This document shows positions 28,836 to 44,581 of a stretch of DNA of 61,628 bases, piece after piece; position 1 is the first letter of the stretch; every line of letters begins with the position of its first letter. The notes beneath the pieces were generated by a model. It was not told the origin of the DNA, did not search any database, and was given only the letters and a program-made list of their open reading frames with translations. Source of the DNA: Opitutia bacterium (GTDB lineage Bacteria; Verrucomicrobiota; Verrucomicrobiia; Opitutales; Coraliomargaritaceae); NCBI GenBank assembly GCA_029248665.1, contig JAQWIW010000004.1:1-61628 (forward strand). The letters are read 5' to 3'. The translations under genes were made by a program, and so were the position numbers.

Positions 28836-28852
28836 TTGGCACAGTTTAAGCT
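28836..28852 (+). promoter_or_regulatory. Candidate sigma-54 (-24/-12) promoter upstream of putative porin
   Basis: TTGGCAC-AGTTT-AAGC-T: the -24 box TTGGCAC is perfect, and the GG-to-GC distance is the required 12 bases. The -12 box reads AAGC where the consensus is TTGC. The same element, including AAGC, recurs upstream of urtA (30411-30427). Transcription would start near 28863, about 65 bases before the porin ATG. Confidence 0.7.
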
Positions 28853-28892
28853 TAGCTATAGTTGGTTACATCCCACTGCGTGGCGTGTGGCT

Positions 28893-28908
28893 ATTGTTCA
28901 TGAACAAT
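28893..28908. promoter_or_regulatory. Perfect 16-bp palindrome in the porin leader
   Basis: ATTGTTCATGAACAAT is fully self-complementary and ends 19 bases before the porin ATG, inside the leader that the candidate sigma-54 promoter would make. It may be an operator or an RNA structure. No second copy was noticed in the window. Confidence 0.5.
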
Positions 28909-28927
28909 ACAAAACAACTATAAATAT

Positions 28928-29773
28928 ATGAAAAAAACATTAATAACATTATTCGCAGCGAGTGCATTATTTGCATCGTCTGTGTTTGCCGGAGTAGGCT
29001 CTTATGGATACATTGATTATGTATACGATGAAGGTTCTACAAGCGTCTTCGAATTCGAATACGGAATGGAATTCTCTGAAGAAGGTTCTCCGTTCACTGC
29101 TGTTGTCGAATTATCATTTTCTGATGATGATACTGATGACACAGACTTCGAAACAGTCACATTAACTTATGCTGCTTCAGATGAGTTATCCTACACTATT
29201 GGTAACATCTTAAGTTATCAAGGGTTCGAAGCTTTTGACCAAACTGGTATGTATCAATACTCATACCAAGGTCCATCATCAGCTGTTGCTTACTCTGCAG
29301 GTTATGCGGTAGGTGCATCGGTAGATTATGTCACTGATGATTATGCTTTTGGTTTCTGGGTAGGTGATGCAGGTTCTTCAGACAGCTATGAGTACTTATT
29401 TGCTTACACTGGTATCGAAGGTGTGACAGCAAAATACATCTATGCGGATGATCCTAGTTATACAACTGATAACTTCTGGGTTTCTTATGAAACAGGTGAC
29501 TTAACACTTGCTTTCGAAACTACAGAAACAGAAGCTGCTGGAATAACCACAGTAGACACTGATATGTTCCTTGCTTATTTAGCAATGGGTGATGGAGGTC
29601 TTACTGTTCGTTACTCAGATGGCGAATGGGGAGGTGTTGATTTTGAGAAATTCACAATTTCACCAAGCTATGCTTTCTCTGATGCGGTATTCGGACTTAT
29701 CGAGTACTCTGATGAAGAATTAGGTGGAGTAGAAACTACTTCTACTGCTGTTGAAGTCTTATACACATTCTAA
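28928..29773 (+). CDS. Putative outer-membrane porin / beta-barrel protein
   Basis: The 281-residue protein has a clear signal peptide (MKKTLITLFAASALFASSVFA, cleavage near residue 21). The mature part is made almost wholly of short alternating strands rich in Tyr, Phe, Gly, Ser and acidic residues, and ends in Phe (VLYTF), the usual C-terminal signature of outer-membrane barrels. I cannot name a subfamily. A sigma-54-type promoter like that of urtA precedes it, and the urea transport genes follow about 700 bases later, so uptake of urea or another small nitrogen compound is a reasonable guess. A strong terminator follows. The leader AAATATATG has no Shine-Dalgarno sequence. Confidence 0.78.
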   Translation: MKKTLITLFAASALFASSVFAGVGSYGYIDYVYDEGSTSVFEFEYGMEFSEEGSPFTAVVELSFSDDDTDDTDFETVTLTYAASDELSYTIGNILSYQGFEAFDQTGMYQYSYQGPSSAVAYSAGYAVGASVDYVTDDYAFGFWVGDAGSSDSYEYLFAYTGIEGVTAKYIYADDPSYTTDNFWVSYETGDLTLAFETTETEAAGITTVDTDMFLAYLAMGDGGLTVRYSDGEWGGVDFEKFTISPSYAFSDAVFGLIEYSDEELGGVETTSTAVEVLYTF

Positions 29774-29792
29774 TTAAACTTTAAATCACAAT

Positions 29793-29825
29793 GGCCTTAG
29801 GTATTTATTACCTAAGGCCTTTTTT
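29793..29825 (+). terminator. Rho-independent terminator after the putative porin
   Basis: GGCCTTAGGTA (29793-29803) and TACCTAAGGCC (29809-29819) form a perfect 11-bp stem with a 5-base loop, followed by six T (29820-29825). The next ATG is only 9 bases further on, so the hairpin probably acts as a partial terminator within a two-gene transcript. Confidence 0.88.
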
Positions 29826-29834
29826 ATAAATCAT

Positions 29835-30314
29835 ATGAAATATATTATCTACAGTATTTGTTTATCCTTTTTATTCTCTCCAATGTACGGAGAAGAGCAC
29901 TCAATTGAAGACTTAGAAAAGCGTATTGAAATTTTAGAAAAGCAGATGAAAGAATTTCAGCTTTATAAGATAACTGAGAACCAAGTATTTTCTTCTCCTG
30001 AAGTCTCGCAAATTATTGCTAATCTGAGCAAGGAAGACATCGAAAAACTAGCGAATAAAGTTTACCAAGAAGAGGAAGGTAATCTCTATCCGTGGATGGA
30101 TTTGAGTAAATGGGAACAGTTGAAAAAAGGCATGAGCACAAGTGACGCTTTAGCCATATTAGGAAAACCAACAAAAGAATTTCCATCGCTTCATAAGCGA
30201 GTGGATTTGCTATTTATTTATAAGGGAAGACAGATTCCGTCTAATCGACTAGTTGAAGGAATTCTTAAATTTTATAAAGATGAGTTAATTATCATTGAGC
30301 TGCCAAATCTTTGA
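29835..30314 (+). CDS. Secreted coiled-coil protein with SmpA/OmlA (BamE-like) domain
   Basis: The 159 residues start with a signal peptide (about 1-19, ending PMYGEE), followed by a short coiled coil (EDLEKRIEILEKQMKEF). The second half has the SmpA/OmlA-type motif W-x-x-L-x-x-G-M (WEQLKKGMSTSDALAILGKP, about 102-121), as in BamE and related envelope proteins. There is no lipobox cysteine, so it is probably soluble in the periplasm. It starts 9 bases after a terminator, leaving no room for its own promoter, so it depends on read-through from the porin gene. Its role is unknown; assisting porin assembly is a guess. Confidence 0.72.
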   Translation: MKYIIYSICLSFLFSPMYGEEHSIEDLEKRIEILEKQMKEFQLYKITENQVFSSPEVSQIIANLSKEDIEKLANKVYQEEEGNLYPWMDLSKWEQLKKGMSTSDALAILGKPTKEFPSLHKRVDLLFIYKGRQIPSNRLVEGILKFYKDELIIIELPNL

Positions 30315-30344
30315 GAAAATTACTTAAGAATTTTTAAAAATTGA

Positions 30345-30376
30345 AATGCTTTCTCTCCAGGGAAGGCATTTTTTTT
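30345..30376 (+). terminator. Rho-independent terminator before the urea operon
   Basis: AATGCTTTC (30345-30353) pairs with GAAGGCATT (30362-30370) as a 9-bp stem with one G-T pair and an 8-base loop, followed by T8 (30369-30376). It separates the SmpA-domain gene from the urtA promoter. Confidence 0.85.
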
Positions 30377-30384
30377 ATTTAAAG

Positions 30385-30398
30385 CGAAATAAATTTCG
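30385..30398. promoter_or_regulatory. Palindrome upstream of the urtA sigma-54 element
   Basis: CGAAAT-AA-ATTTCG is a perfect inverted repeat ending 12 bases before the -24 box of urtA. It may be an operator, but enhancer sites for sigma-54 activators usually lie further upstream, so the role is uncertain. Confidence 0.35.
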
Positions 30399-30410
30399 AG
30401 TCTCAGGATA

Positions 30411-30427
30411 TTGGCACGGTTAAAGCT
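30411..30427 (+). promoter_or_regulatory. Candidate sigma-54 (-24/-12) promoter of the urt-ure operon
   Basis: TTGGCAC-GGTTA-AAGC-T has a perfect -24 box and the exact 12-base GG-to-GC spacing. It is nearly identical to the element before the porin gene at 28836. The start of transcription would be near 30438, about 37 bases before the urtA ATG. Nitrogen-limited sigma-54 control of urea uptake is known in other bacteria. Confidence 0.75.
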
Positions 30428-30474
30428 ATTAGTATTTTGTGCGAATTATCGCATATGAAAAATTAAATTAGAAA

Positions 30475-31728
30475 ATGAAAAATCTTAAAAAATTAACAAT
30501 TAGCTGTATAGCTGGTTTATTCTTATCGTTTTCATCTTTGTTTGCTGGTGATGAAGATTCCGTAAAAGTCGGTATCTTGCATTCATTAAGTGGTACGATG
30601 GCGATTTCAGAAACATCTCTTAGAGATGTATTACTCTTCACTATTGACGAAATCAATAAAAGTGGAGGTGTCCTTGGTAAACAAATTGAAGCAGTTCAAG
30701 CTGATGGAGCTTCAGATTGGCCAATGTTTGCGGAGAAATCAGAACAATTATTAGCTCAAGATGAGTGTGCAGCTGTGTTTGGTTGCTGGACATCGGTGAG
30801 TCGTAAATATGCATTACCTGTTTTCGAAAAATACAACGGATTATTATTTTATCCGGTACAGTATGAAGGCGAAGAAGAGTCACCAAATATCTTTTACACT
30901 GCGGAAGCGGTTGGACAGCAAGCGATCCCTGCGGTTGATTATTTGCTCAACGAAGGGTACACAAAATTTTACCTAATTGGTACCGACTACGTTTATCCAC
31001 AGACAACAAATATTGTTTTATTTGAGTACTTACTTTCTAAAGGAATTCCAGTTGAAAATATTGGAGGTGGTATTCGTTACGAAGGCGATGTGGCCGTTTC
31101 TGCGGGTAATTATACACCTTTCGGACACACAGATTTCCAGCAAATTGTTGCTGAAATCACTGACTTCGCTGCTTCTGGTGATGCGTGTGTGATTAATACA
31201 ATTAACGGTGATGCGAATGTGCCTTTCTTTAAAGAGATTGCGGCTTCAGGACTTACATCAGATGATTGTCCAATTGTTTCATTCTCTCTTTCTGAAGATG
31301 AGTTTCGTAGTCTACCAACAAAAGACTTAGTGGGTCACCTCGGTTGCTGGACCTATTTCATGTCAATCGACTCAAAGGCGAACAAGAAGTTTATTAAAAG
31401 TTTCAATAAATGGCTGAAAAAATCTGCACCGGATTATGTGCAAAAAGAAGGCCGTGTTACTTGTAGCCCAATGGTACTTTCATACAATGGTGTATATCTA
31501 TGGAAAGCAGCGGTTGAAGCAGCAGGTACGTTTGAAGTCGATGCGGTAATCGCTGCATTAGAATCAGGAATTTCTTTCGACGGGCCCGGTGGTACAGTTA
31601 CCACACAAGCTAACCATCACGTAACTAAAAATGTTTTCATCGGCGAGACACTCGAAGATGGACAATTTGAAATTTTAGAAGTTATGGAAAATGTTTACGG
31701 CGAACCTTGGTTGAAGGGAACTTTTTAA
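30475..31728 (+). CDS. urtA: Urea ABC transporter substrate-binding protein UrtA
   Basis: Periplasmic urea receptor of the branched-chain-amino-acid type. The 417 residues start with a signal peptide (about 1-24, ending SSLFAG). The mature protein follows the UrtA pattern: [50 protein letters not shown], and [18 protein letters not shown]. The length agrees with the family. It opens the contiguous urtABCDE-ureABCEFGD operon under a sigma-54-type promoter and is followed by a hairpin that may limit transcription into urtB. Confidence 0.95.
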
Positions 31729-31838: not shown

Positions 31839-33485
31839 ATGTATAGGAACGGATTTAGTTTATTATTTTTTGGGCTCACATTCCTAGCGACAATTGTCCT
31901 GTACGGCAATTCTGATGAGCGAGGGCCAAGAGATGTTTTTGTCGATCTTATACTTGCTGATAAATCGGAGCAGAGTGCTTTAATTGAAGAGATGAATGAG
32001 TTTGGTGATCCAATTATTGCGAAAATTTATGAGGATTGGAGACGGGGTAAAATTTTTAGTTTGGAAACGGAAGCAAGCAAAGAGATCATTTATATTGATG
32101 AACGAAATAACTGTTATTCATTGCTGACAGGAGAGGTGCTTGAATATTCCGAAGAGACGAGAGAGAATTTTAATAAAGAACGGATTGCCCGTGCTTTGAG
32201 AAAACAATTTAAAGGACTTATCGATACTTTGGGGCTTAAATCGATTAATGCGAAAACACGAATAAAGTCAGCGATTAAACTAGGGCGTAGTCAAAAAGCA
32301 GAGTATATAGAGCCTTTAGAAAAACGATTAGCAATCGAAGAAAATGCGAAAGTGAAAGCAGCAATCGATGAAGCTTTAGCGATTAATTTATTGAAAAATG
32401 GCAATGAGACTCAGCGCTTAGAGTCGGTCAATCGATTGGCTGAACTGAAGTCAATTGCGGCTAAAGATTTTATTGAAAAGATTTTAGCAAGAGAGATAGA
32501 TGCTGGTAAATCAAATGAGCCTTTGGCACTTGCTTGTAGTGCATCGATTTTAACCATAGAGTCACATATCCGAGTCATTGAATTTTTTGGAAGCTTTTTT
32601 CGAGGCTTAAGTACGGGTTCTGTTTTACTCATTGTTTCTTTCGGCTTGGCGATTACCTTTGGTCTGATGGGTGTGATTAATATGGCACACGGAGAATTCG
32701 TTGCCATTGGCGGTTATACGACTTTCTTAGTGCAAAATGTTTTCATATCAATTTGGGGGATCGACCATCCTATGTTCGGGTGGTATTTTCTCGTAGCATT
32801 CCCAGTCAGTTTTATTGTGGCTGCTTTGATTGGAATTGTTGTCGAGAAAGGTGTGATTCGATTTTTATACCGAAGACCTTTGGAATCATTACTATGTACA
32901 TGGGGCTTATCTATGATGATGCAACAAGGCTTTCGCTTGATTTTTGGTGCGGCAAATGTGCAAGTAAATAACCCTTCATGGTTGATGGGTAGTTTAAATT
33001 TTGGCGGGTTTTCTATGAGTTTCACTCGTTTGCTTATTGTTGCCTTGGCTATTTTGGTCGTCTTTTTAACCTGGGCTTTGCTCCAAAAAACGAATCTTGG
33101 ATTACATATTCGAGCGGTTATGCAAAATCGTAATATGGCGAGCAGTTTAGGAATTCCTGTGAGTAAAGTGAACAGTATGACTTTTTCCTTGGGCTGTGGC
33201 TTAGCGGCACTTGGTGGTGCAGCACTTTCTCAAATTGGCAACGTAGGCCCATCGATGGGGCAAGCCTATATTGTGGATAGTTTTATGGTGGTGGTGATAG
33301 GAAGTGTGGGCAATCTTATAGGTGCCGGTTTGTCTGCGATGGGAATTGGCATGGTGGATCAATTATTGCAACCCTACCTCGGTCCAGTCATGGGAAAAAT
33401 TACCGTATTTTTCATTATCATTTTATTTTTACAATGGAAACCAGGAGGAATCTTTCCAACTAAATCAAGGAGCTTAGATGACTAA
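31839..33485 (+). CDS. urtB: Urea ABC transporter permease UrtB
   Basis: Inner-membrane permease of LivH type. The 548 residues have a signal-like N-terminus and a soluble, helical, repeat-like domain of about 240 residues, then about eight membrane helices with typical permease stretches ([19 protein letters not shown] near 279, [13 protein letters not shown] near 421). The long N-terminal extension is normal for UrtB and not a fusion peculiar to this organism. It overlaps urtC by 8 bases. Confidence 0.94.
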
Positions 33486-34578
33486 CAAAAATATATTTAA
33501 AGAGTTAGGTGCATCAGGAGTCATTTTGGCTTTCTTGATGTTGCTTCCAATATTAAATATGGTGGGACCTGACTCAGGATTATTTTCCGTCAGTGCCTTT
33601 CAACTCTCGCTTTGGGGCAAGTATTTAACTTTTGCCGTTCTAGCTATGAGCTTGAATTTATTATGGGGCTACACGGGACTACTGTGTTTGTGTCAAAGTT
33701 TATTCTTTGCTTTAGGTGGCTATATGATGGGCATGTACCTAATGTTGATGATAGGAGAACGAGGTGCCTACAAAAGTGTCTTGCCTGATTTTATGGTTTT
33801 TCTTGGTTATCAAGATTTACCAATTCACTGGGCTCCATTCTATAATTTTTGGTTTACTTCTGCGGCAATTTTATGGGTACCTGGAGTGGTTGCTTTAATT
33901 TTTGGCTACCTTGCATTTCGATCAAGAATTCGAGGGGTCTATTTTTCTATATTAACACAAGCGCTGACTTACGCCTCATGTTTACTTTTTTACCGCAATG
34001 ATTTTACTTTCGGTGGAAATAATGGATTCACTGATTTTAAAGATATTTTGGGGATGGATTTAAATTCCATAGAAACGGTAAGAATTCTTTTTATCAGTTC
34101 AGTTGTGCTTTTATTTCTTACTTATTTTATAACTAGTTTTCTCCTCAAGACTAAGTTGGGTAAAATTCAGCAAGCGATTCGAGATTCGGAAAATAGGGTG
34201 CTTTTTTCTGGCTATTCCACTGCCAACTTCAAACTCGGAATTTTTGTTTTAAGTGCGATGATAGCTGGAGCGGCTGGAGCCTTGTATGTCCCACAAGTAG
34301 GCGGGATTAATCCTAGCTTAATGGAGGCGGCTAAATCTTTAGAAGTAGTGGTGTGGGTGGCTGTAGGAGGACGTGGTACCAAATGGGGTCCGGCAATTGG
34401 GGCAATCTTTGTCAACTTGTTAAAGAGTTATACGACTCAGGCATTTCCAGATTATTGGCTAATTTTTATGGGTGGATTATTCGTCTTTGTTGTATTGTTT
34501 ATGCCGCAAGGATTGATTGGGGTCTACAATCAATTAAAAGAGAAATTTTTAAAAAAGGAAGGAACAGTTTCAGTATAG
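33478..34578 (+). CDS. urtC: Urea ABC transporter permease UrtC
   Basis: Second inner-membrane permease, LivM type, 366 residues with about eight to ten helices. Recognisable segments are [30 protein letters not shown], and the cytoplasmic coupling region [17 protein letters not shown]. The start overlaps the end of urtB by 8 bases, so the two are translationally coupled and should form a heterodimer. Length and order agree with urt operons in other bacteria. Confidence 0.94.
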
Positions 34579-34584
34579 ATAATT

Positions 34585-35388
34585 ATGAATGCGATGAACA
34601 AGCCTCCTGTTTTTAGAGACACGCCTTTTATTCTTTCTGTCGAAGGAGTGACCAAAAGCTTTGATGGATTTAAAGCAATCAACGACTTAAATTTTTACCT
34701 CGAAGAAGGGGAATTGCGTACAGTGATTGGTCCCAATGGTGCAGGCAAAAGTACCTTCATGGATATTCTTACCGGAAAAACAAATCCTGATGTGGGGACG
34801 GTGACATTCCATCGACCTGACGGGCATGATGTGGATCTAATTAAATTAAAAGAATATCAAATTAACCGTTTAGGGATTGGTAGAAAATTTCAAACACCGA
34901 GTATTTATGCTTCTCATACCGTCTATGATAATTTGCTTCTTTCTTTGAATCGAGCACGCGGAATCCTTGGAACATTATTTTATAAACTGAACTCTGAAGA
35001 CGAGGACAAGATCAACGAAGTTTTAAAAATAATTAATTTAACCACTTCAAAATCCAGGCCGGCGGGACTCTTGTCGCATGGACAAATGCAATGGCTAGAA
35101 ATCGGTATGCTCTTAGCTCAAGAATTAAAAATTTTATTAATTGATGAGCCTGCAGCTGGAATGAGTGATGAAGAGACAGTAAAGACAGGAGAATTGCTGC
35201 TTAGTTTGGAGGGGAAACATACTTTAATTGTCATTGAGCATGATATGGAATTTATCCGACAAATTGCACGAAGGGTAACCGTTTTGCATCAAGGTTCTGT
35301 ACTGAAAGAGGGCTCTTTTGAGAATGTTAAAGCAGACCCCGAAGTGATTGAAGTATATCTTGGAAGGCAAACTCGAGCGGAAATATAA
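34585..35388 (+). CDS. urtD: Urea ABC transporter ATP-binding protein UrtD
   Basis: LivG-type ATPase, 267 residues. Walker A is GPNGAGKST near residue 50; the signature loop reads LLSHGQ where most ABC proteins have LSGGQ, as is usual in UrtD/LivG proteins; Walker B is ILLIDEPAAGMSDEE; and the switch histidine is in VIEHDMEF. It starts 6 bases after urtC. Confidence 0.95.
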   Translation: MNAMNKPPVFRDTPFILSVEGVTKSFDGFKAINDLNFYLEEGELRTVIGPNGAGKSTFMDILTGKTNPDVGTVTFHRPDGHDVDLIKLKEYQINRLGIGRKFQTPSIYASHTVYDNLLLSLNRARGILGTLFYKLNSEDEDKINEVLKIINLTTSKSRPAGLLSHGQMQWLEIGMLLAQELKILLIDEPAAGMSDEETVKTGELLLSLEGKHTLIVIEHDMEFIRQIARRVTVLHQGSVLKEGSFENVKADPEVIEVYLGRQTRAEI

Positions 35389-35395
35389 AATAGAT

Positions 35396-36130
35396 ATGAA
35401 AGAATCAGAATCAGAATTTAAAAGTAATAAAACATTGCTTAAAATCCGTGACTTAAATGCAAGTTATGATGCTTCATTAATTCTTAAATCAATCAATATG
35501 GATTTAGTTGAAGGTTCGGTGATGGCTTTATTAGGACGAAATGGTGTGGGTAAAACGACACTCCTTCGGGCTTTAATGGGATTAATGCCTAAGACGGATG
35601 GCTCGATAGAATTTACCGGCAAGGCGATTGAAAATTTGCGTCCAGATCAGCGAGCTATTCTTGGGATGGGATATGTTCCACAAGGAAGAGATATTTTTCC
35701 AAATTTAACAGTTAAGGAAAATTTAGACGTGAGTATGAGTATCTCGGGCCAAGCAGGACGTGAGCAATTAGAGTTCGTGTATGATTTATTTCCGGTCATC
35801 AAGGAGATGCTTTCAAGAAAAGGTGGTGTTTTATCAGGTGGACAGCAGCAGCAACTTGCTATTGGGCGTGCACTTCTAACTAATCCAAAATTATTAATTC
35901 TTGATGAACCTACGGAGGGGATACAGCCTTCAATTATTGATCAAATTGAAGATTCGATCCACCGTTTAAAAAATGAAAGCTCAATTAGTATTATACTAGT
36001 CGAGCAATATCTAGACTTTGCTAAATCAGCGAGTGATAATTTCTATATAATGGATCGTGGGTCGGTGGTTCAATCAGGAGAATCCAAAAATTTATCAATT
36101 GAAATTATTCAAAAATATTTAACTGTATAG
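35396..36130 (+). CDS. urtE: Urea ABC transporter ATP-binding protein UrtE
   Basis: LivF-type ATPase, second nucleotide-binding subunit. I chose the ATG at 35396, 7 bases after the urtD stop (244 residues). A TTG at 35348 in the same frame would overlap urtD by 41 bases and add a poor N-terminus. Walker A is GRNGVGKTT, the signature LSGGQQQQLAIGRAL and Walker B LLILDEPTEGIQPS. The TEGIQPS stretch is typical of UrtE/LivF. ureA starts only 3 bases after the stop. Confidence 0.94.
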   Translation: MKESESEFKSNKTLLKIRDLNASYDASLILKSINMDLVEGSVMALLGRNGVGKTTLLRALMGLMPKTDGSIEFTGKAIENLRPDQRAILGMGYVPQGRDIFPNLTVKENLDVSMSISGQAGREQLEFVYDLFPVIKEMLSRKGGVLSGGQQQQLAIGRALLTNPKLLILDEPTEGIQPSIIDQIEDSIHRLKNESSISIILVEQYLDFAKSASDNFYIMDRGSVVQSGESKNLSIEIIQKYLTV

Positions 36131-36133
36131 GTT

Positions 36134-36436
36134 ATGCATTTAACTCCAAGAGAACAAGAGAAGCTCATGATATGTGTAGCCTCAGATCTTGCGCGTAGAA
36201 GACAGGCGCGAGGATTAAAATTAAATTACCCAGAAGCTATAGCGATTATCACTTTTGAATTACTTGAAGGGATAAGAGACGGCAAATCAGTTGCAGATTT
36301 AATGAGCTTTGGAACAACGATTTTAAGTCGAGACGATGTCATGGAAGGAGTCCCTGAAATGATTCATGAAGTTCAAGTTGAAGGCACTTTTCCTGATGGA
36401 ACAAAATTGGTAACGGTACACAATCCCTTAAGATGA
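36134..36436 (+). CDS. ureA: Urease subunit gamma
   Basis: Smallest structural subunit of the nickel urease, 100 residues. It begins with the family signature [12 protein letters not shown], includes [19 protein letters not shown], and ends with the [18 protein letters not shown] tail. It is separated from urtE by only 3 bases, which places the transporter and the enzyme in one transcript. The stop overlaps the ureB start by 4 bases. Confidence 0.97.
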
Positions 36437-36744
36437 TCCCAGGAGAATATAGATTCAAAGACGATGCCCCTGATTTAATCGGAAACGAAGGCTTAGAAAC
36501 CAAGACCCTTCGTATCACGAATAAAGGTGATCGGCCGATTCAGATTGGAAGTCATTTTCATTTTTTTGAGGTGAATGAATTTTTAGAATTTGATCGGATG
36601 GCGAGTAAAGGTTTTCGTTTAAATATAGCAGCGGGCACAGCTATTCGCTTTGAGCCAGGTGATGTGCGTGAAGTTGAATTAGTTGCACTGAGTGGACTGC
36701 GTAAAGTCTATGGGTTAAATAACAAAGTGGATGGAGATTTATAA
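36433..36744 (+). CDS. ureB: Urease subunit beta
   Basis: Second structural subunit, 103 residues, starting MIPGEYRF. It contains the conserved [19 protein letters not shown] block and [13 protein letters not shown]. The length is normal for the three-subunit enzyme. The overlap with ureA couples their translation. Confidence 0.97.
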
Positions 36745-36750
36745 GTGTCT

Positions 36751-36757
36751 AAGGAGA
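36751..36757 (+). promoter_or_regulatory. Shine-Dalgarno sequence of ureC
   Basis: AAGGAGA lies 7 bases before the ureC ATG. It is noted because most other genes in the window have no such sequence, so ureC may be translated more strongly than its neighbours. Confidence 0.75.
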
Positions 36758-36764
36758 TAGTATT

Positions 36765-38498
36765 ATGAGTTTAAAATATACAAGACGCCAATATGCAGAA
36801 ATGTACGGACCGACAGTTGGAGATCAAGTTCGCCTAGCCGATACCGATTTATTTATCGAAGTGGAGCGTGATTTAATCGCCGAATCGGGTGGCTACGGAA
36901 ACGAAGTGAAATTTGGTGGAGGTAAGGTGATTCGAGATGGCATGGGCCAATCGCCTTTAGCCGAAGATGCAGATTGTTTAGATTTAGTACTTACTAATGC
37001 GACAATCATAGATCCAGTACAAGGTATCATTAAAGCGGATATCGGGGTAACAAATGGCTTAATTTCAGGTATTGGTCATGCGGGCAATCCTTTGATTCAA
37101 AAAGGCATCACCGAAGGAATGGTTATCGGTGCGGGAACAGAAGTGATTGCAGCAGAAGGGCATATTGTAACTGCCGGTGGCTTTGATTCACACATTCATT
37201 TTATTTGCCCTCAGCAGATTAATGAAGCTTTGACTAGTGGCATCACAACAATGACGGGTGGAGGCACTGGTCCCGCTACTGGCACAAACGCCACAACCTG
37301 TACTCCAGGCATTTGGAATATTCATAAGATGCTCGAAGCCGCTGAAGCCTTTCCGATGAACCTTGGTTTTATGGGCAAAGGTAACGCTTCCAATTTAAAT
37401 GCACTTCGGCAACAAGTTGAAGCTGGAGCGATGGGATTAAAATTGCATGAAGATTGGGGGACAACACCGAGTGCAATTGATCACTGTTTAAGTGTCGCCG
37501 ACGAAATGGATGTGCAAGTGGCTATTCATACAGATACTTTAAATGAATCAGGCTTTGTGGAGACAACAATAGAGGCCTTCAAAGACAGAGTCATTCATAC
37601 ATTCCACTCGGAAGGTGCAGGGGGAGGTCATGCTCCTGATATCATAAAAGTTTGCGGCCTGGCTAATGTACTTCCTTCATCAACCAATCCAACTCGTCCC
37701 TTTACAAAAAATACCATTGATGAGCATTTAGATATGTTGATGGTGTGCCATCATTTGGATTCTAAAATTCCCGAAGACGTGGCCTTTGCGGAATCAAGAA
37801 TCCGCCCACAAACCATTGCCGCTGAAGATATATTACATGATCAAGGTGCGATTTCAATCATGTCTAGTGATAGCCAAGCGATGGGTCGAGTGGGTGAAGT
37901 TATCATTCGTACTTGGCAGACAGCGGATAAAATGAAGAAACAATTTGGCACACTTGAATCTGAAACTCCGATGCCCGCAGATAATTTTCGGATCTTGCGT
38001 TACATTGCAAAATATACACTGAATCCAGCGATTGCATGCGGTTGTGCTTCGGATGTGGGAAGTCTGGAAATTGGCAAATTAGCTGATATGGTTATATTTA
38101 AACCAGCTCTTTTTGGTGTGAAGCCAGAGATGGTGCTTAAAGGTGGTTTTATCGCTACAGCAAATATGGGTGATCCGAATGCTTCAATCCCGACTCCTCA
38201 ACCCACTTACTATCGTCCGCAATTTGGTTCCTTTGGAAAAGCCTTATCGAAGACCTCAATCACATTTGTCAGTCAAAAGGCTTTAGAGCAAGATATTGCA
38301 GGAACTTTAGGGCTGAAGAAAATAATTAAGGCAGTATCAAGTACGCGTACAATTTCCAAAAAAGATATGATGTACAATTCGGCCTTGCCAAAAATTGAAG
38401 TCGACCCTGAGACCTATACAGTCAAAGCGGACGGAAAAATTCTTACCTGCGAGCCGGCAGAAGTCTTGCCAATGGCACAACGGTATTTATTATTCTAA
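36765..38498 (+). CDS. ureC: Urease subunit alpha (catalytic)
   Basis: Catalytic nickel subunit that hydrolyses urea to ammonia and carbamate. All active-site residues are in place in the 577-residue chain: nickel ligands His143 and His145 ([11 protein letters not shown]), the lysine to be carbamylated Lys226 and neighbouring His228 ([10 protein letters not shown]), His255, His281 ([14 protein letters not shown]), the flap residues Cys328 and His329 (VCHHLD), and Asp369 ([12 protein letters not shown]). The numbering is offset by 9 from the Klebsiella enzyme. The enzyme should be active when matured by UreDEFG, all encoded downstream. Confidence 0.98.
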
Positions 38499-38507
38499 AT
38501 AGTTCCT

Positions 38508-38963
38508 ATGCAAATTATAGAACAATCGATTCATTCTCATAAAAATTTAGCGGAAGTGATTCCGCTCTCAGTAGATCGGCACACTTTGGCGAGAAAACGT
38601 TGGCATGGTGTTGCAAGTGATGGAAGTGAGTTTGGCTTTGATTTAAAAAGTAGCTTAAAGCATGGGGATATTTTTTTTGAAAAAGAAGGCCGGCTCTACG
38701 CAATCGAACAAACAGAAGAACCTTGTTTTCTAATTCAATTGAGTACACCTAAAGCGTCTGCTTGGCTCGGTTGGATGGTCGGCAATTTACATTTTAAAGC
38801 TGAATTTACCGAAGAAGGCATGCTTGTGCAGGATGATTTAGCGGTACGCCAAATGCTTGAACGAGAGTCGATTGAATTTGCTTTGGTGAATCGAATTTTT
38901 CAGCCATGTGCCCAAGGAGGACATTCACACGATCACCCACACTCACATAGCCACGAACATTAA
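38508..38963 (+). CDS. ureE: Urease accessory protein UreE (nickel metallochaperone)
   Basis: Delivers nickel to apo-urease. The 151 residues have an N-terminal UreE beta domain (LARKRWHGVASDGSEFGFDL), the metal-binding domain with a conserved histidine in GWMVGNLHFKAEF, and a histidine-rich tail (HSHDHPHSHSHEH) that stores nickel. The tail is shorter than in Klebsiella but clearly present. ureF begins directly after the stop. Confidence 0.94.
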   Translation: MQIIEQSIHSHKNLAEVIPLSVDRHTLARKRWHGVASDGSEFGFDLKSSLKHGDIFFEKEGRLYAIEQTEEPCFLIQLSTPKASAWLGWMVGNLHFKAEFTEEGMLVQDDLAVRQMLERESIEFALVNRIFQPCAQGGHSHDHPHSHSHEH

Positions 38964-39671
38964 ATGATGAAAGCCCTTGAGAATAATGCTTGGGTGGCTC
39001 CGCTTCTTCAGGTTTCCGATCCTCTATTTCCAACCGGAGGTTACGCACATTCACTTGGGTTTGAGCAATGGGCTTACGAAAAAGCTTACGATTCTAAAGA
39101 AGACCTGAAACAATTTTTCCTCAATCACGCGGGACCTGCCTTGATGCGACAAGAATTTCCTTACTTGCGAGAGGCCCTCATAGCATTTACCGAAGAAGAT
39201 TTTGAAACAATCATTCAGTTAGATGAAGCGATCAATGCTTGGAAGTGGGCGAGTGAAATTCGTGAAGCAAGCATTGCTCAGGGGCGAGGACGCTTACGAT
39301 TATTAAAACAAATGTGGGGCGAAGATAAGTCATTAAATAAATACGCAGAGCTTTTTGATCAGGGAAAAGTGATGGGACACCATTTAATTGTTTCGGCTCT
39401 ACAGTATAAAATTTTATCGGTTCCAAATTCAGCGGCCTTGTTTGCCTACGGCTACCAAACCTTGGCGACTTATATTTCTGCATCGATCAAACTGCTGCGG
39501 ATCAGTCCGGAGTCGGCTCAGGATGCAATGCACTTTGGGCTCGATCACTTAAGCCAGTGGGTAGAAGATTCAAATGCCGTCTCTGTGTCATCGGCCGGTT
39601 GGTTTGCTCCACTTTACGATATCTATTCGGCTCGTCATAAGACGGCCTTTTCACGACTTTTTATTTCTTAA
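38964..39671 (+). CDS. ureF: Urease accessory protein UreF
   Basis: Part of the UreDFG activation complex; it controls the UreG GTPase. The 235-residue helical protein has the family opening [21 protein letters not shown], as well as [18 protein letters not shown] and the C-terminal [20 protein letters not shown]. It begins immediately after the ureE stop and ends 2 bases before ureG. Confidence 0.94.
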
Positions 39672-39673
39672 TT

Positions 39674-40309
39674 ATGAGTACACAATCAACAAACATTCGT
39701 CCTGTCCGTGTCGGCATCGGTGGCCCAGTAGGCTCTGGAAAAACGATGCTTCTACTTCGCTTAATTGAAGCGTTGAACGAGCAGTATTCTTTAGTCGCAA
39801 TTACTAATGATATCTACACCCAAGAAGATGCACAATTCATTGTCAAAAACAGTCCTTTAGAAAGCTCTCGGGTTGTTGGGGTCGAAACAGGCGGTTGCCC
39901 ACATACCGCAATCCGTGATGACACGAGTATGAATGAAGTGGCGATCGAAGATTTGCTCAAAACACATCCAGATGCCAACGTTGTCTTAATTGAAAGTGGG
40001 GGAGATAATTTATCCGCGACTTTTTCTCCTGATTTAGTCGATGCTTTTATTTATGTGATCGATGTGGCGGAAGGCGATAAGATCCCGAGAAAAGGGGGAC
40101 CGGCTATTCGTTTTTCCGATTTGCTGATTATCAATAAAATTGATCTCGCACCCTATGTCGGAGCAGACCTAGCGGTGATGGATAGAGATTCTAAATTAAT
40201 GAGAAAAGAAAAACCCTTTCTTTTTTGTGATCTAAAAAGCCATAAAGGCTTAGCGGAAGTGATTGAATGGTTAGAGAAAGAATGCTTCTTTGCGATTAAG
40301 AATAAGTAA
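39674..40309 (+). CDS. ureG: Urease accessory GTPase UreG
   Basis: SIMIBI-class GTPase that powers nickel insertion. The 211 residues show the P-loop [12 protein letters not shown] near residue 16, the nickel-binding Cys-Pro-His in [29 protein letters not shown], and the guanine motif [13 protein letters not shown]. It has no histidine-rich N-terminal extension. The stop overlaps the ureD ATG by one base. Confidence 0.97.
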
Positions 40310-41172
40310 TGCTGGCTTTTTCAAATAAGAATGATCTCAGTCGCTCGGCGGTGAAAGGTGGTGCGAATTTAGTCTATGGATTAAATTCGCTTGGGGATTC
40401 TGCTTTGAGTAAACAATGGGTGAGCCCTCCATTGCATATGTCAAAGACCCACCAAGAAGATGGCTTCGCGATTTCCCAATTACTCAGTCCAACGGCAGGG
40501 CTACTACAAGGAGATCTTCTAGAAGTGAAAGTTTCGGTGCTTGATGCGGCCAAGGTCGCTGTTATCTCTCCTGCGGCTTGTCGGATTCATTCTATGGATT
40601 CAGGGTATGCCCAGGTTAAACAATCTTACTCTGTAGAAACAGGTGGATTCTTAGATGTTTGGACGGCTCCGTTGATTTTACAGGCCGCTTCCAAGCTCAA
40701 ACAAGAAACGATTCTCGATATCGCAGAAGGGGCGTGTGCTTTATTTTGCGAAATTGTCTCCCCAGGCCGCAGTGCCTTTGGCGAGCAGTTTGAGTTTGAG
40801 CAATGGCAGTCCAATACTCGTATTCTCTATAATGATACCTTAATCAATTATGAAAACTTTACTTGTGAACCCAAGAAAGGGGATGTTCGGGACTGGCAGG
40901 ACGCTTATCCCGAGGGGAATTATGCCAGTATGTATTTAATCAGTAGTCGTGATTTTGATGAATTTATTGCCGAAATGCATCAAATTGAAACGCCAGATGC
41001 GATTATTGGCTTAAGTGACTTAAATAAAGCAGGGCTGGGCATTAAAATACTGGCAAAAGATGGGGTAAGTCTCAGAAGAACCATTGTTTTACTGCGAGAA
41101 AGGCTATTTAAAGAACTTAAATTGAGTATTCCGGCCTCATTGAACCGATCTCAGAGCTTCTTCTATAATTAG
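40309..41172 (+). CDS. ureD: Urease accessory protein UreD (UreH)
   Basis: Scaffold that binds apo-urease with UreF and UreG and carries the nickel path. The 287 residues show UreD features such as LSPTAGLLQGDLLEVKVSV near residue 55 and QSYSVETGGFLDVWTAPLI. Many operons place ureD first; here it is last, after ureG. It is translationally coupled to ureG. No clear terminator follows within the 199-base gap before the TorF-like gene. Confidence 0.92.
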   Translation: MLAFSNKNDLSRSAVKGGANLVYGLNSLGDSALSKQWVSPPLHMSKTHQEDGFAISQLLSPTAGLLQGDLLEVKVSVLDAAKVAVISPAACRIHSMDSGYAQVKQSYSVETGGFLDVWTAPLILQAASKLKQETILDIAEGACALFCEIVSPGRSAFGEQFEFEQWQSNTRILYNDTLINYENFTCEPKKGDVRDWQDAYPEGNYASMYLISSRDFDEFIAEMHQIETPDAIIGLSDLNKAGLGIKILAKDGVSLRRTIVLLRERLFKELKLSIPASLNRSQSFFYN

Positions 41173-42682: not shown

Positions 42683-44581
42683 ATGACTGCTTATCGTATA
42701 GTTATCGCTATGTTTAGATCGGTCATTCACGCTTGCTTTCTCGCGCTTATCTTTGCTTCGGCATTTGTTGGCACGAGTGTAGCTCAGTCTGAAAACACTA
42801 GTGAAACAAATAAACTATCGATTCAAATTCTGACGAATAAGTCAGAAATTATTTTAGGCGAAGAATCAAGAAGTGATGAAGGTCTTTTGATTGGCTTAGA
42901 AATGGAGGCTGAATCGGGCTGGCATTTTTATTGGGCTGGATTAGGCACTGAATTATTAGAACCGACCATTACTTGGGATTTACCAGAAGGTATGCGTGTG
43001 GAAGCCTTGAATCATCCTGAGCCAAGTCGTTTTGATTATGGGGCCTATATGGGCTATGGCTATGATGGGAGCGAGGTTTTTCTTTATCGTTTAGTGAGCG
43101 ATGAGGAAGAGGTTAGGGATTACAACTTAGGGGATTTGCTTACAATTTCGGCTACAGTTGATTGGATCTTGTGTAAGGATGTGTGTATTTTTGGAACTGA
43201 AATGGTTTCTTTAGATTGGACGATTTCTGATGTGGAAGAAATAATACCAGAGAGCATATTTTTAAATGGCTTATTAGAAGCAGAAGAAGCAGAAGAAGCA
43301 AAGACGAATCAAGGCCTAGAAAATCGCTTTTTAGAAATGGGTGTTTTGGGATGGCTTATGGCTGCGTTTCTTGGTGGGGTGATTTTAAATTTAATGCCCT
43401 GTGTGTTGCCGGTTTTATCGATCAAAGTATTCAGTTTGATTCAACATGCAGATGGGGCGGCTTCGAAACGCTATTTGCATGGTGCGATGTATACGCTTGG
43501 AGCCGTATTGAGTTTCATTGTCTTGGCCTTAGTTTTGATTGGATTGCGAAGTATAGGTGAAGAAGTGGGTTGGGGCTTCCAATTACAAGATCCTTACTTT
43601 ATTGCTTTCTTGATCATACTATTCTTTTTGTTGGGATTGAATATGCTAGGAGTGTATGAGTTGGGCTCGAGTTTGTCTCGCCTGTCCAATGCTTCTATTT
43701 CGAATCGTTCGGATTGGCTGGGGTCATTCGGTACGGGGATTTTAGCCGCCGTTGTTGGAGCACCGTGTGTGGGGCCGTTTATAGGAGGTGTGAGTGGTAT
43801 TGCTTTGCAAGTGAATAGTACACTGGGCGTTTTGATCTTTGCTTGCATCGGCTTGGGTATGGCTTTCCCGTTTTTGCTTTTATCTTGGTTCCCTGGCTTA
43901 TTAAGATTTTTGCCTAAGCCGGGTGCGTGGATGGTGACCTTCCGCCAAGCAATGGGGGTCTTGTTAATTCTATCAACAGCTTTCCTTGTCTGGGTAGTCG
44001 GTCAATCAGCTGGGACGAATGGGGTGATGCAAATTTTGCTAGTTCTATTTTTTGTTTTAATCGCGAGTTGGGTGCTGGGTCGTTGGGGGCGTATTTCTGA
44101 AAGCAAAGAGACGCAAAGGCTGGCAAAGTTTCTGAGCCTTTGCTTGATTGTGATTCCTGGATTGATTGTCAGTCAGAATTTAGCCGAGCTTTATGAAGCG
44201 GAAGGCGGCCAAGCAAGCATCTACGAAGAAGGACCTTGGAAAGAATGGTCAGAAGAATCGGTAGCGGATGCTTTGAACTCTGGGCATGGAGTGTTTATTG
44301 ATTTTACAGCCAGCTGGTGTTTGATTTGCCAAAGCAACAAAGTCTTAGTGTTAAGAAAAGAAAAAACAGAGTCTTTGTTTGAAGATTATGGGATTCGTTT
44401 ATTTGTAGCAGATTGGACACAGAATGATCCTGAAATTACTCGAGCTTTAGAGCGTTACGGCCGTTCTGGAGTGCCGCTTTATGTTTTGAAAGCAGCAGAT
44501 GGCACGGAGCAAATTTTGCCTCAAAATCTAAGCTATTCAGCAATAGAGTCCGCGGTGAAAGCACTGTTTTCCGAGCAATAG
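42683..44581 (+). CDS. DsbD-like protein-disulfide reductase
   Basis: Transfers reducing power from cytoplasmic thioredoxin across the inner membrane to periplasmic thiols. I start at ATG 42683; a TTG just before it and an ATG at 42710 (with a neater signal peptide, MFRSVIHACFLALIF) are alternatives. The N-terminal periplasmic domain (about 40-190) has a cysteine pair in VDWILCKDVCIFG. The membrane domain (about 215-500) has the two redox cysteines in LNLMPCVLP and GAPCVGPFIGG, and the C-terminal thioredoxin domain has the WCLIC active site. This is the full three-module layout of DsbD/ScsB proteins. Confidence 0.88.
   Translation: MTAYRIVIAMFRSVIHACFLALIFASAFVGTSVAQSENTSETNKLSIQILTNKSEIILGEESRSDEGLLIGLEMEAESGWHFYWAGLGTELLEPTITWDLPEGMRVEALNHPEPSRFDYGAYMGYGYDGSEVFLYRLVSDEEEVRDYNLGDLLTISATVDWILCKDVCIFGTEMVSLDWTISDVEEIIPESIFLNGLLEAEEAEEAKTNQGLENRFLEMGVLGWLMAAFLGGVILNLMPCVLPVLSIKVFSLIQHADGAASKRYLHGAMYTLGAVLSFIVLALVLIGLRSIGEEVGWGFQLQDPYFIAFLIILFFLLGLNMLGVYELGSSLSRLSNASISNRSDWLGSFGTGILAAVVGAPCVGPFIGGVSGIALQVNSTLGVLIFACIGLGMAFPFLLLSWFPGLLRFLPKPGAWMVTFRQAMGVLLILSTAFLVWVVGQSAGTNGVMQILLVLFFVLIASWVLGRWGRISESKETQRLAKFLSLCLIVIPGLIVSQNLAELYEAEGGQASIYEEGPWKEWSEESVADALNSGHGVFIDFTASWCLICQSNKVLVLRKEKTESLFEDYGIRLFVADWTQNDPEITRALERYGRSGVPLYVLKAADGTEQILPQNLSYSAIESAVKALFSEQ

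Follow-up and report, generated by a model that had tools for sequence, protein, structure and literature searches.

Two intergenic sites in the 61,628-nucleotide stretch of Opitutia DNA analysed here (the window) very probably are sigma-54 nitrogen promoters, one for a porin gene and one for the urea operon headed by urtA, which would be opened together with the amtB promoter by an activator of the NtrC/AtoC type and would yield mRNAs with a hairpin at +1. In the proposed mechanism, both sites would serve as -24/-12 promoters for RNA polymerase carrying sigma-54 and would be opened, along with the amtB promoter, when nitrogen is limiting. The opening would fall to a phosphorylated activator of the NtrC/AtoC type, whose gene is most likely the one adjoining amtB-glnK. 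The output would comprise an ammonium transporter and a PII protein, an outer-membrane porin, and a urea ABC transporter with urease, and the mRNAs would begin with a predicted hairpin that may guard against 5'-end-dependent decay. We infer the use of the sites by sigma-54, the identity of the activator and nitrogen as the signal from the genomic evidence that follows.

Both sites are exact 17-base matches to TTGGCAC-N5-AAGCT on the forward strand, TTGGCACAGTTTAAGCT at 28836-28852 and TTGGCACGGTTAAAGCT at 30411-30427. Each has a perfect -24 box, a GG-to-GC spacing of 12 bases and a -12 box reading AAGC. The initial annotation had described the pair in these terms, and all were found as described; the two bases in which AAGC differs from TTGC are at less conserved positions. 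Taking the C of GC as position -12, with RNA starting 12 bases further on, the predicted +1 falls at 28863 for the porin gene and at 30438 for the urea operon. The regions around the two sites could not be aligned outside the 17-mer, and the sites therefore do not belong to a longer repeat. Each precedes an open reading frame with a signal peptide (ATG at 28928 and 30475, respectively), and because intrinsic-terminator-like hairpins are predicted between the units, a bidirectional one 3' of the porin gene (29793-29819) and a forward-strand one upstream of the urtA promoter (30343-30372), the two sites would head separate transcription units. The window holds no other exact match to TTGGCACN5AAGCT; a third near match at 42768 lies in a DsbD-like gene, in the part coding for the signal peptide, and is probably due to chance. 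That the two sites themselves are chance matches, with the real starts provided by ordinary sigma-70-type promoters, is extremely improbable. A sigma-70-like match (9/12) does overlap the urtA site at 30411-30438, but it is weak and such matches occur at the chance rate for the region (6 found, 5.9 expected from shuffled sequence), whereas base composition predicts just 0.006 exact sigma-54-type matches in the window (0.13 in the whole genome) and the sites are conserved across genera.

The gene behind the first site (28928-29773, forward strand) encodes a protein of 281 residues with no Pfam or NCBIfam match, which had been described as a barrel protein. An AlphaFold model built from ten orthologues (m50ab141fc7df; mean pLDDT 74) has 16 strands, and Foldseek matched it best to OmpU, OmpF and the Rhodopseudomonas blastica porin, with TM-scores of 0.73 or less; on the strength of the strand number and these matches, the modelled protein is a general 16-stranded porin by fold. 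It also has the signal peptide and C-terminal aromatic residue of the porin class. Its neighbouring genes, including urtA, which it adjoins in relatives, suggest that the outer-membrane pore may pass urea or other small solutes. Between the porin gene and urtA, a forward-strand reading frame (29835-30314) with no family match encodes a small, probably secreted protein of 159 residues; in one relative (G010), the end of a similar reading frame stands upstream of urtA.

The gene behind the second site is urtA (30475-31728, forward strand), encoding the substrate-binding protein of a urea ABC transporter (PF13433, E 5e-127), in agreement with its earlier assignment. It is followed on the same strand by urtB, urtC, urtD and urtE (31839-36130), all NCBIfam equivalogs above cut-off, and by the urease genes (36134-41172) in the order ureA, ureB, ureC, ureE-like, a reading frame in the ureF position, ureG and a reading frame in the ureD position. 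NCBIfam matches identify ureA, ureB and ureG, and ureC and a UreE-like protein are also present in the operon; the reading frames at 38964-39671 and 40309-41172 gave no NCBIfam match at 1e-10 and are therefore assigned to ureF and ureD, respectively, by position only. UrtB (31839-33485) is 548 residues long and the UrtB model covers only residues 252-544, which indicates an additional N-terminal region of about 250 residues.

The 1.42 Mb assembly (completeness 97.8%) contains six matches to TTGGCACN5WWGC, compared with two for a reversed control pattern. Four of the six lie directly upstream of genes and in sense with them, namely amtB-glnK, dnaK, the porin gene and urtA; the other two fall within coding sequence, one antisense in a hisS-like gene and one in the DsbD-like signal peptide. 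The amtB site, TTGGCACGCCAATTGCT, precedes an amt-glnK-amt-glnK cluster. A relaxed pattern, TTGGCAYN7GCW, has 14 sites in the genome, the extra ones being mostly within genes. The initial annotation had looked to glnA, amtB and glnK as expected targets; amtB-glnK proved to have a site, and glnA is not among the genome matches to the exact or the relaxed pattern, so that any site at glnA would be a weaker one. A further sequence, TTGGCATAATATATGCT (G000:C31:70065-70081; L217 / L224), is intergenic, with a terminator-like hairpin and a T-run within about 100 bases downstream, and possibly marks a sigma-54-dependent small RNA or else a chance occurrence.

Conservation was examined in orthologues drawn from 57 related genomes, the named relatives being marine Puniceicoccaceae, Opitutales and BACL24 assemblies, which identifies the source of the window as a marine opitutial verrucomicrobium. 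A site was counted as conserved, within the family, if it scored at least 11 bits within the last 250 bases upstream of the gene on a sigma-54 weight matrix that was set from general knowledge of the consensus and not fitted to the family sequences. Sites were found upstream of 11 of 13 urtA, 8 of 9 porin and 25 of 26 amtB orthologues, where dinucleotide shuffles lead one to expect 0.45, 0.15 and 1.1, respectively, and in at least ten relatives the porin gene adjoins urtA on the same strand. The sequence evidence thus bears out the motif, its conservation and the linkage of the genes. The assignment of both window sites to a single RpoN regulon, proposed in the initial annotation, is upheld by the presence of rpoN, the motif before amtB-glnK, the conserved sites and the retained linkage of porin and urtA; with the activators encoded in the genome, these observations make it well supported that the porin gene, urtA and amtB would form one RpoN nitrogen regulon.

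The same comparison rejects AAGC as a lineage-specific form of the -12 box. Both the amtB and the dnaK box of this genome read TTGC, and in relatives the base preceding GC depends on the gene: all 30 amtB sites have T and all 8 porin sites have A, whereas urtA sites are mixed (4 A, 2 G and 5 T). As judged from these counts, the departure is gene-specific and is kept at the porin. The porin and urtA boxes in the window lack the usual T before GC, which counts against a sigma-54 reading of these sites; a reasonable guess is that a box without this T makes for a weaker or more tightly held promoter.

The genome encodes one RpoN (contig C20), as the initial annotation had asked to be confirmed, and its TIGR02395 score of 387.8 bits exceeds the cut-off of 277.35. 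Two strong matches to the sigma-54 activator domain PF00158 were found, on contigs C7 and C28, and both have GSFTGA motifs; a third, weak match is ClpC-like. The C7 activator is a response regulator encoded upstream of amt-glnK-amt-glnK. It scores 430 bits against the ntrC model TIGR01818, below the cut-off of 558.6, and the AtoC model outscores the ntrC model, yet also remains below its own cut-off. In four genomes of the genus the activator gene precedes amtB; in the stretches examined outside the genus, it was not seen adjoining amtB. The C28 activator is split into two reading frames of 313 and 165 residues (L223:3298-4742), reflecting either an assembly frameshift or a decaying gene. A search for dyads and 7-mers shared upstream of the promoters, as candidate activator-binding sites, returned only tRNA, terminator and poly-T words.

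With two GSFTGA activators in the genome and a sigma-54-type site also at dnaK, the promoters might answer to the second activator, or to some other cue (envelope or proteostasis stress, for example), and the urea genes would then belong to a general RpoN response. We regard this as quite improbable, since, of the four sites in promoter position, three stand before genes for nitrogen uptake or neighbours of such genes, the response-regulator gene adjoining amtB-glnK is a natural partner for them, and the second activator is the one that is split in the assembly. The dnaK site of this genome (L002:1501-1516; G000:C11:15799-15815) belongs to a set of TTGGCAY-N5-NTGCW-like sites that lie about 28 bases upstream of the dnaK ATG; most of the family's genomes have one, as do several from the order (loci L180-L207). 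Elsewhere in the phylum, similar sites occur 43-131 bases upstream of the dnaK GIDLG codons. Given sigma-54 spacing, the 28-base form would produce a nearly leaderless mRNA. The literature searched held no direct report of sigma-54-dependent dnaK in Verrucomicrobiota; in the parts consulted of a 2025 comparison of sigma-54 regulons, a chaperone cluster that includes DnaK shows enrichment in Planctomycetota and Bacteroidota (PMC12316311).

For a nitrogen regulon under RpoN, the predicted leaders have an additional feature in common, a hairpin at the predicted transcription start. In the window these are a stem-loop at 28863-28893 in the porin mRNA, which orthologues have at the same place with another sequence and which is followed by a second stem (TTGTTCATGAACAA, 28894-28907), and a stem-loop at 30438-30455 in the urtA mRNA (TGTGCGA-ATTA-TCGCATA), all on the forward strand. 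When a 26-nt window was moved along the orthologous leaders, folding energy reached its minimum at offset -2 from the predicted +1 in the urtA, porin and amtB groups, with mean energies of -4.5, -6.9 and -6.1 kcal/mol compared with shuffle means of -1.75, -2.7 and -3.0 kcal/mol; a further, shallower minimum lies about 24 bases downstream in the amtB group. The corresponding z-scores are -6.1, -7.8 and -9.3, with none of 500 shuffles as low; related sequences are not independent, so these scores overstate the evidence, yet three gene groups agree. In 38 of 48 leaders, pairing begins no more than two bases from the predicted +1, a count in which earlier starts are clipped since the folding window opens at -2. 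When 48 nt from +1 were folded for amtB, the signal was weaker than in the 26-nt window (mean z -1.0). The position of the energy minimum in three gene groups supports the predicted start sites. Past the hairpin, the porin and amtB orthologue leaders are rich in A and C (CAAACAAACAA-like), and most have no obvious Shine-Dalgarno sequence.

Hairpin sequence varies among genes and genera with the pairing retained, and G-U pairs make up about 12% of the predicted pairs. Covariation in the amtB hairpin of one genus group is only suggestive, 39 of 500 shuffles being as high. Both the drift in sequence under retained pairing and the G-U pairs, which operators would have no cause to retain, make it unlikely that the dyads at +1 are DNA operators for a repressor or activator instead of RNA hairpins, even though perfect inverted repeats occur among them, GTTCACAGTGAAC upstream of amtB being one. 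Nor are the hairpins a by-product of the promoter, as the leaders of eight dnaK genes with sigma-54-type sites, taken from other families and classes, have no hairpin at +1 (z -0.26). Several bacterial mRNAs are stabilised by stem-loops at the 5' end, which also impede RppH (review PMC3997798), and by analogy the +1 hairpins may shield the nitrogen-scavenging mRNAs against 5'-end-dependent decay. Whether the lineage as a whole pairs sigma-54 nitrogen promoters with a +1 hairpin of free sequence, joining RpoN switch-on to protection from decay, with dnaK expressed nearly leaderless from a sigma-54 promoter, we consider an even chance.

Compared with the NtrC/sigma-54 promoters of proteobacteria (glnAp2, glnK-amtB), the system described here shares the -24/-12 elements with a 12-base GG-to-GC spacing, rpoN, an NtrC-type response regulator and an amtB-glnK target. 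It differs in its occurrence in Verrucomicrobiota, its tiny set of exact sites, the absence of recognised NtrC operators, the weak -12 box at the porin gene and urtA, and the 5'-terminal hairpins. The FmdC-FmdDEF system for amide and urea uptake likewise has a porin gene adjoining a urea/amide ABC transporter, but no Pfam or NCBIfam model matches the window porin, which is likened to FmdC by gene context. The stabilising leaders of ompA, papA and aprE also carry a hairpin at the extreme 5' end, and a 5' hairpin appended to bla mRNA stabilises it (PMC3997798); here, in contrast, the hairpins are predicted, occur family-wide in three nitrogen gene groups and are fixed to the sigma-54 start. Computed sigma-54 regulons across phyla include Opitutia, and that study mentions COG3880 for this group and nowhere uses the word porin (PMC12316311). 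In a genus-mate (L225, G003:C9), TTGGCACTCTATTTGCA lies 79 bases upstream of a gene for a CXXC-pair protein resembling McsA (COG3880), an observation consistent with that mention of COG3880 in Opitutia.

It is well supported that the two window sites would be ordinary nitrogen promoters of the RpoN type; what is unusual is the phylum, and the 5'-terminal hairpins come as an unexpected addition. To our knowledge, nitrogen control in marine Verrucomicrobiota has been little studied, and these sites outline a compact RpoN regulon that lends itself to testing, in a streamlined genome of 1.4 Mb, and link a porin with no family match to the scavenging of urea. Should the +1 hairpins stabilise mRNA, promoter activity and RNA stability would be coupled within one regulon, and the hairpin would provide a sequence-based check on sigma-54 starts in this phylum.
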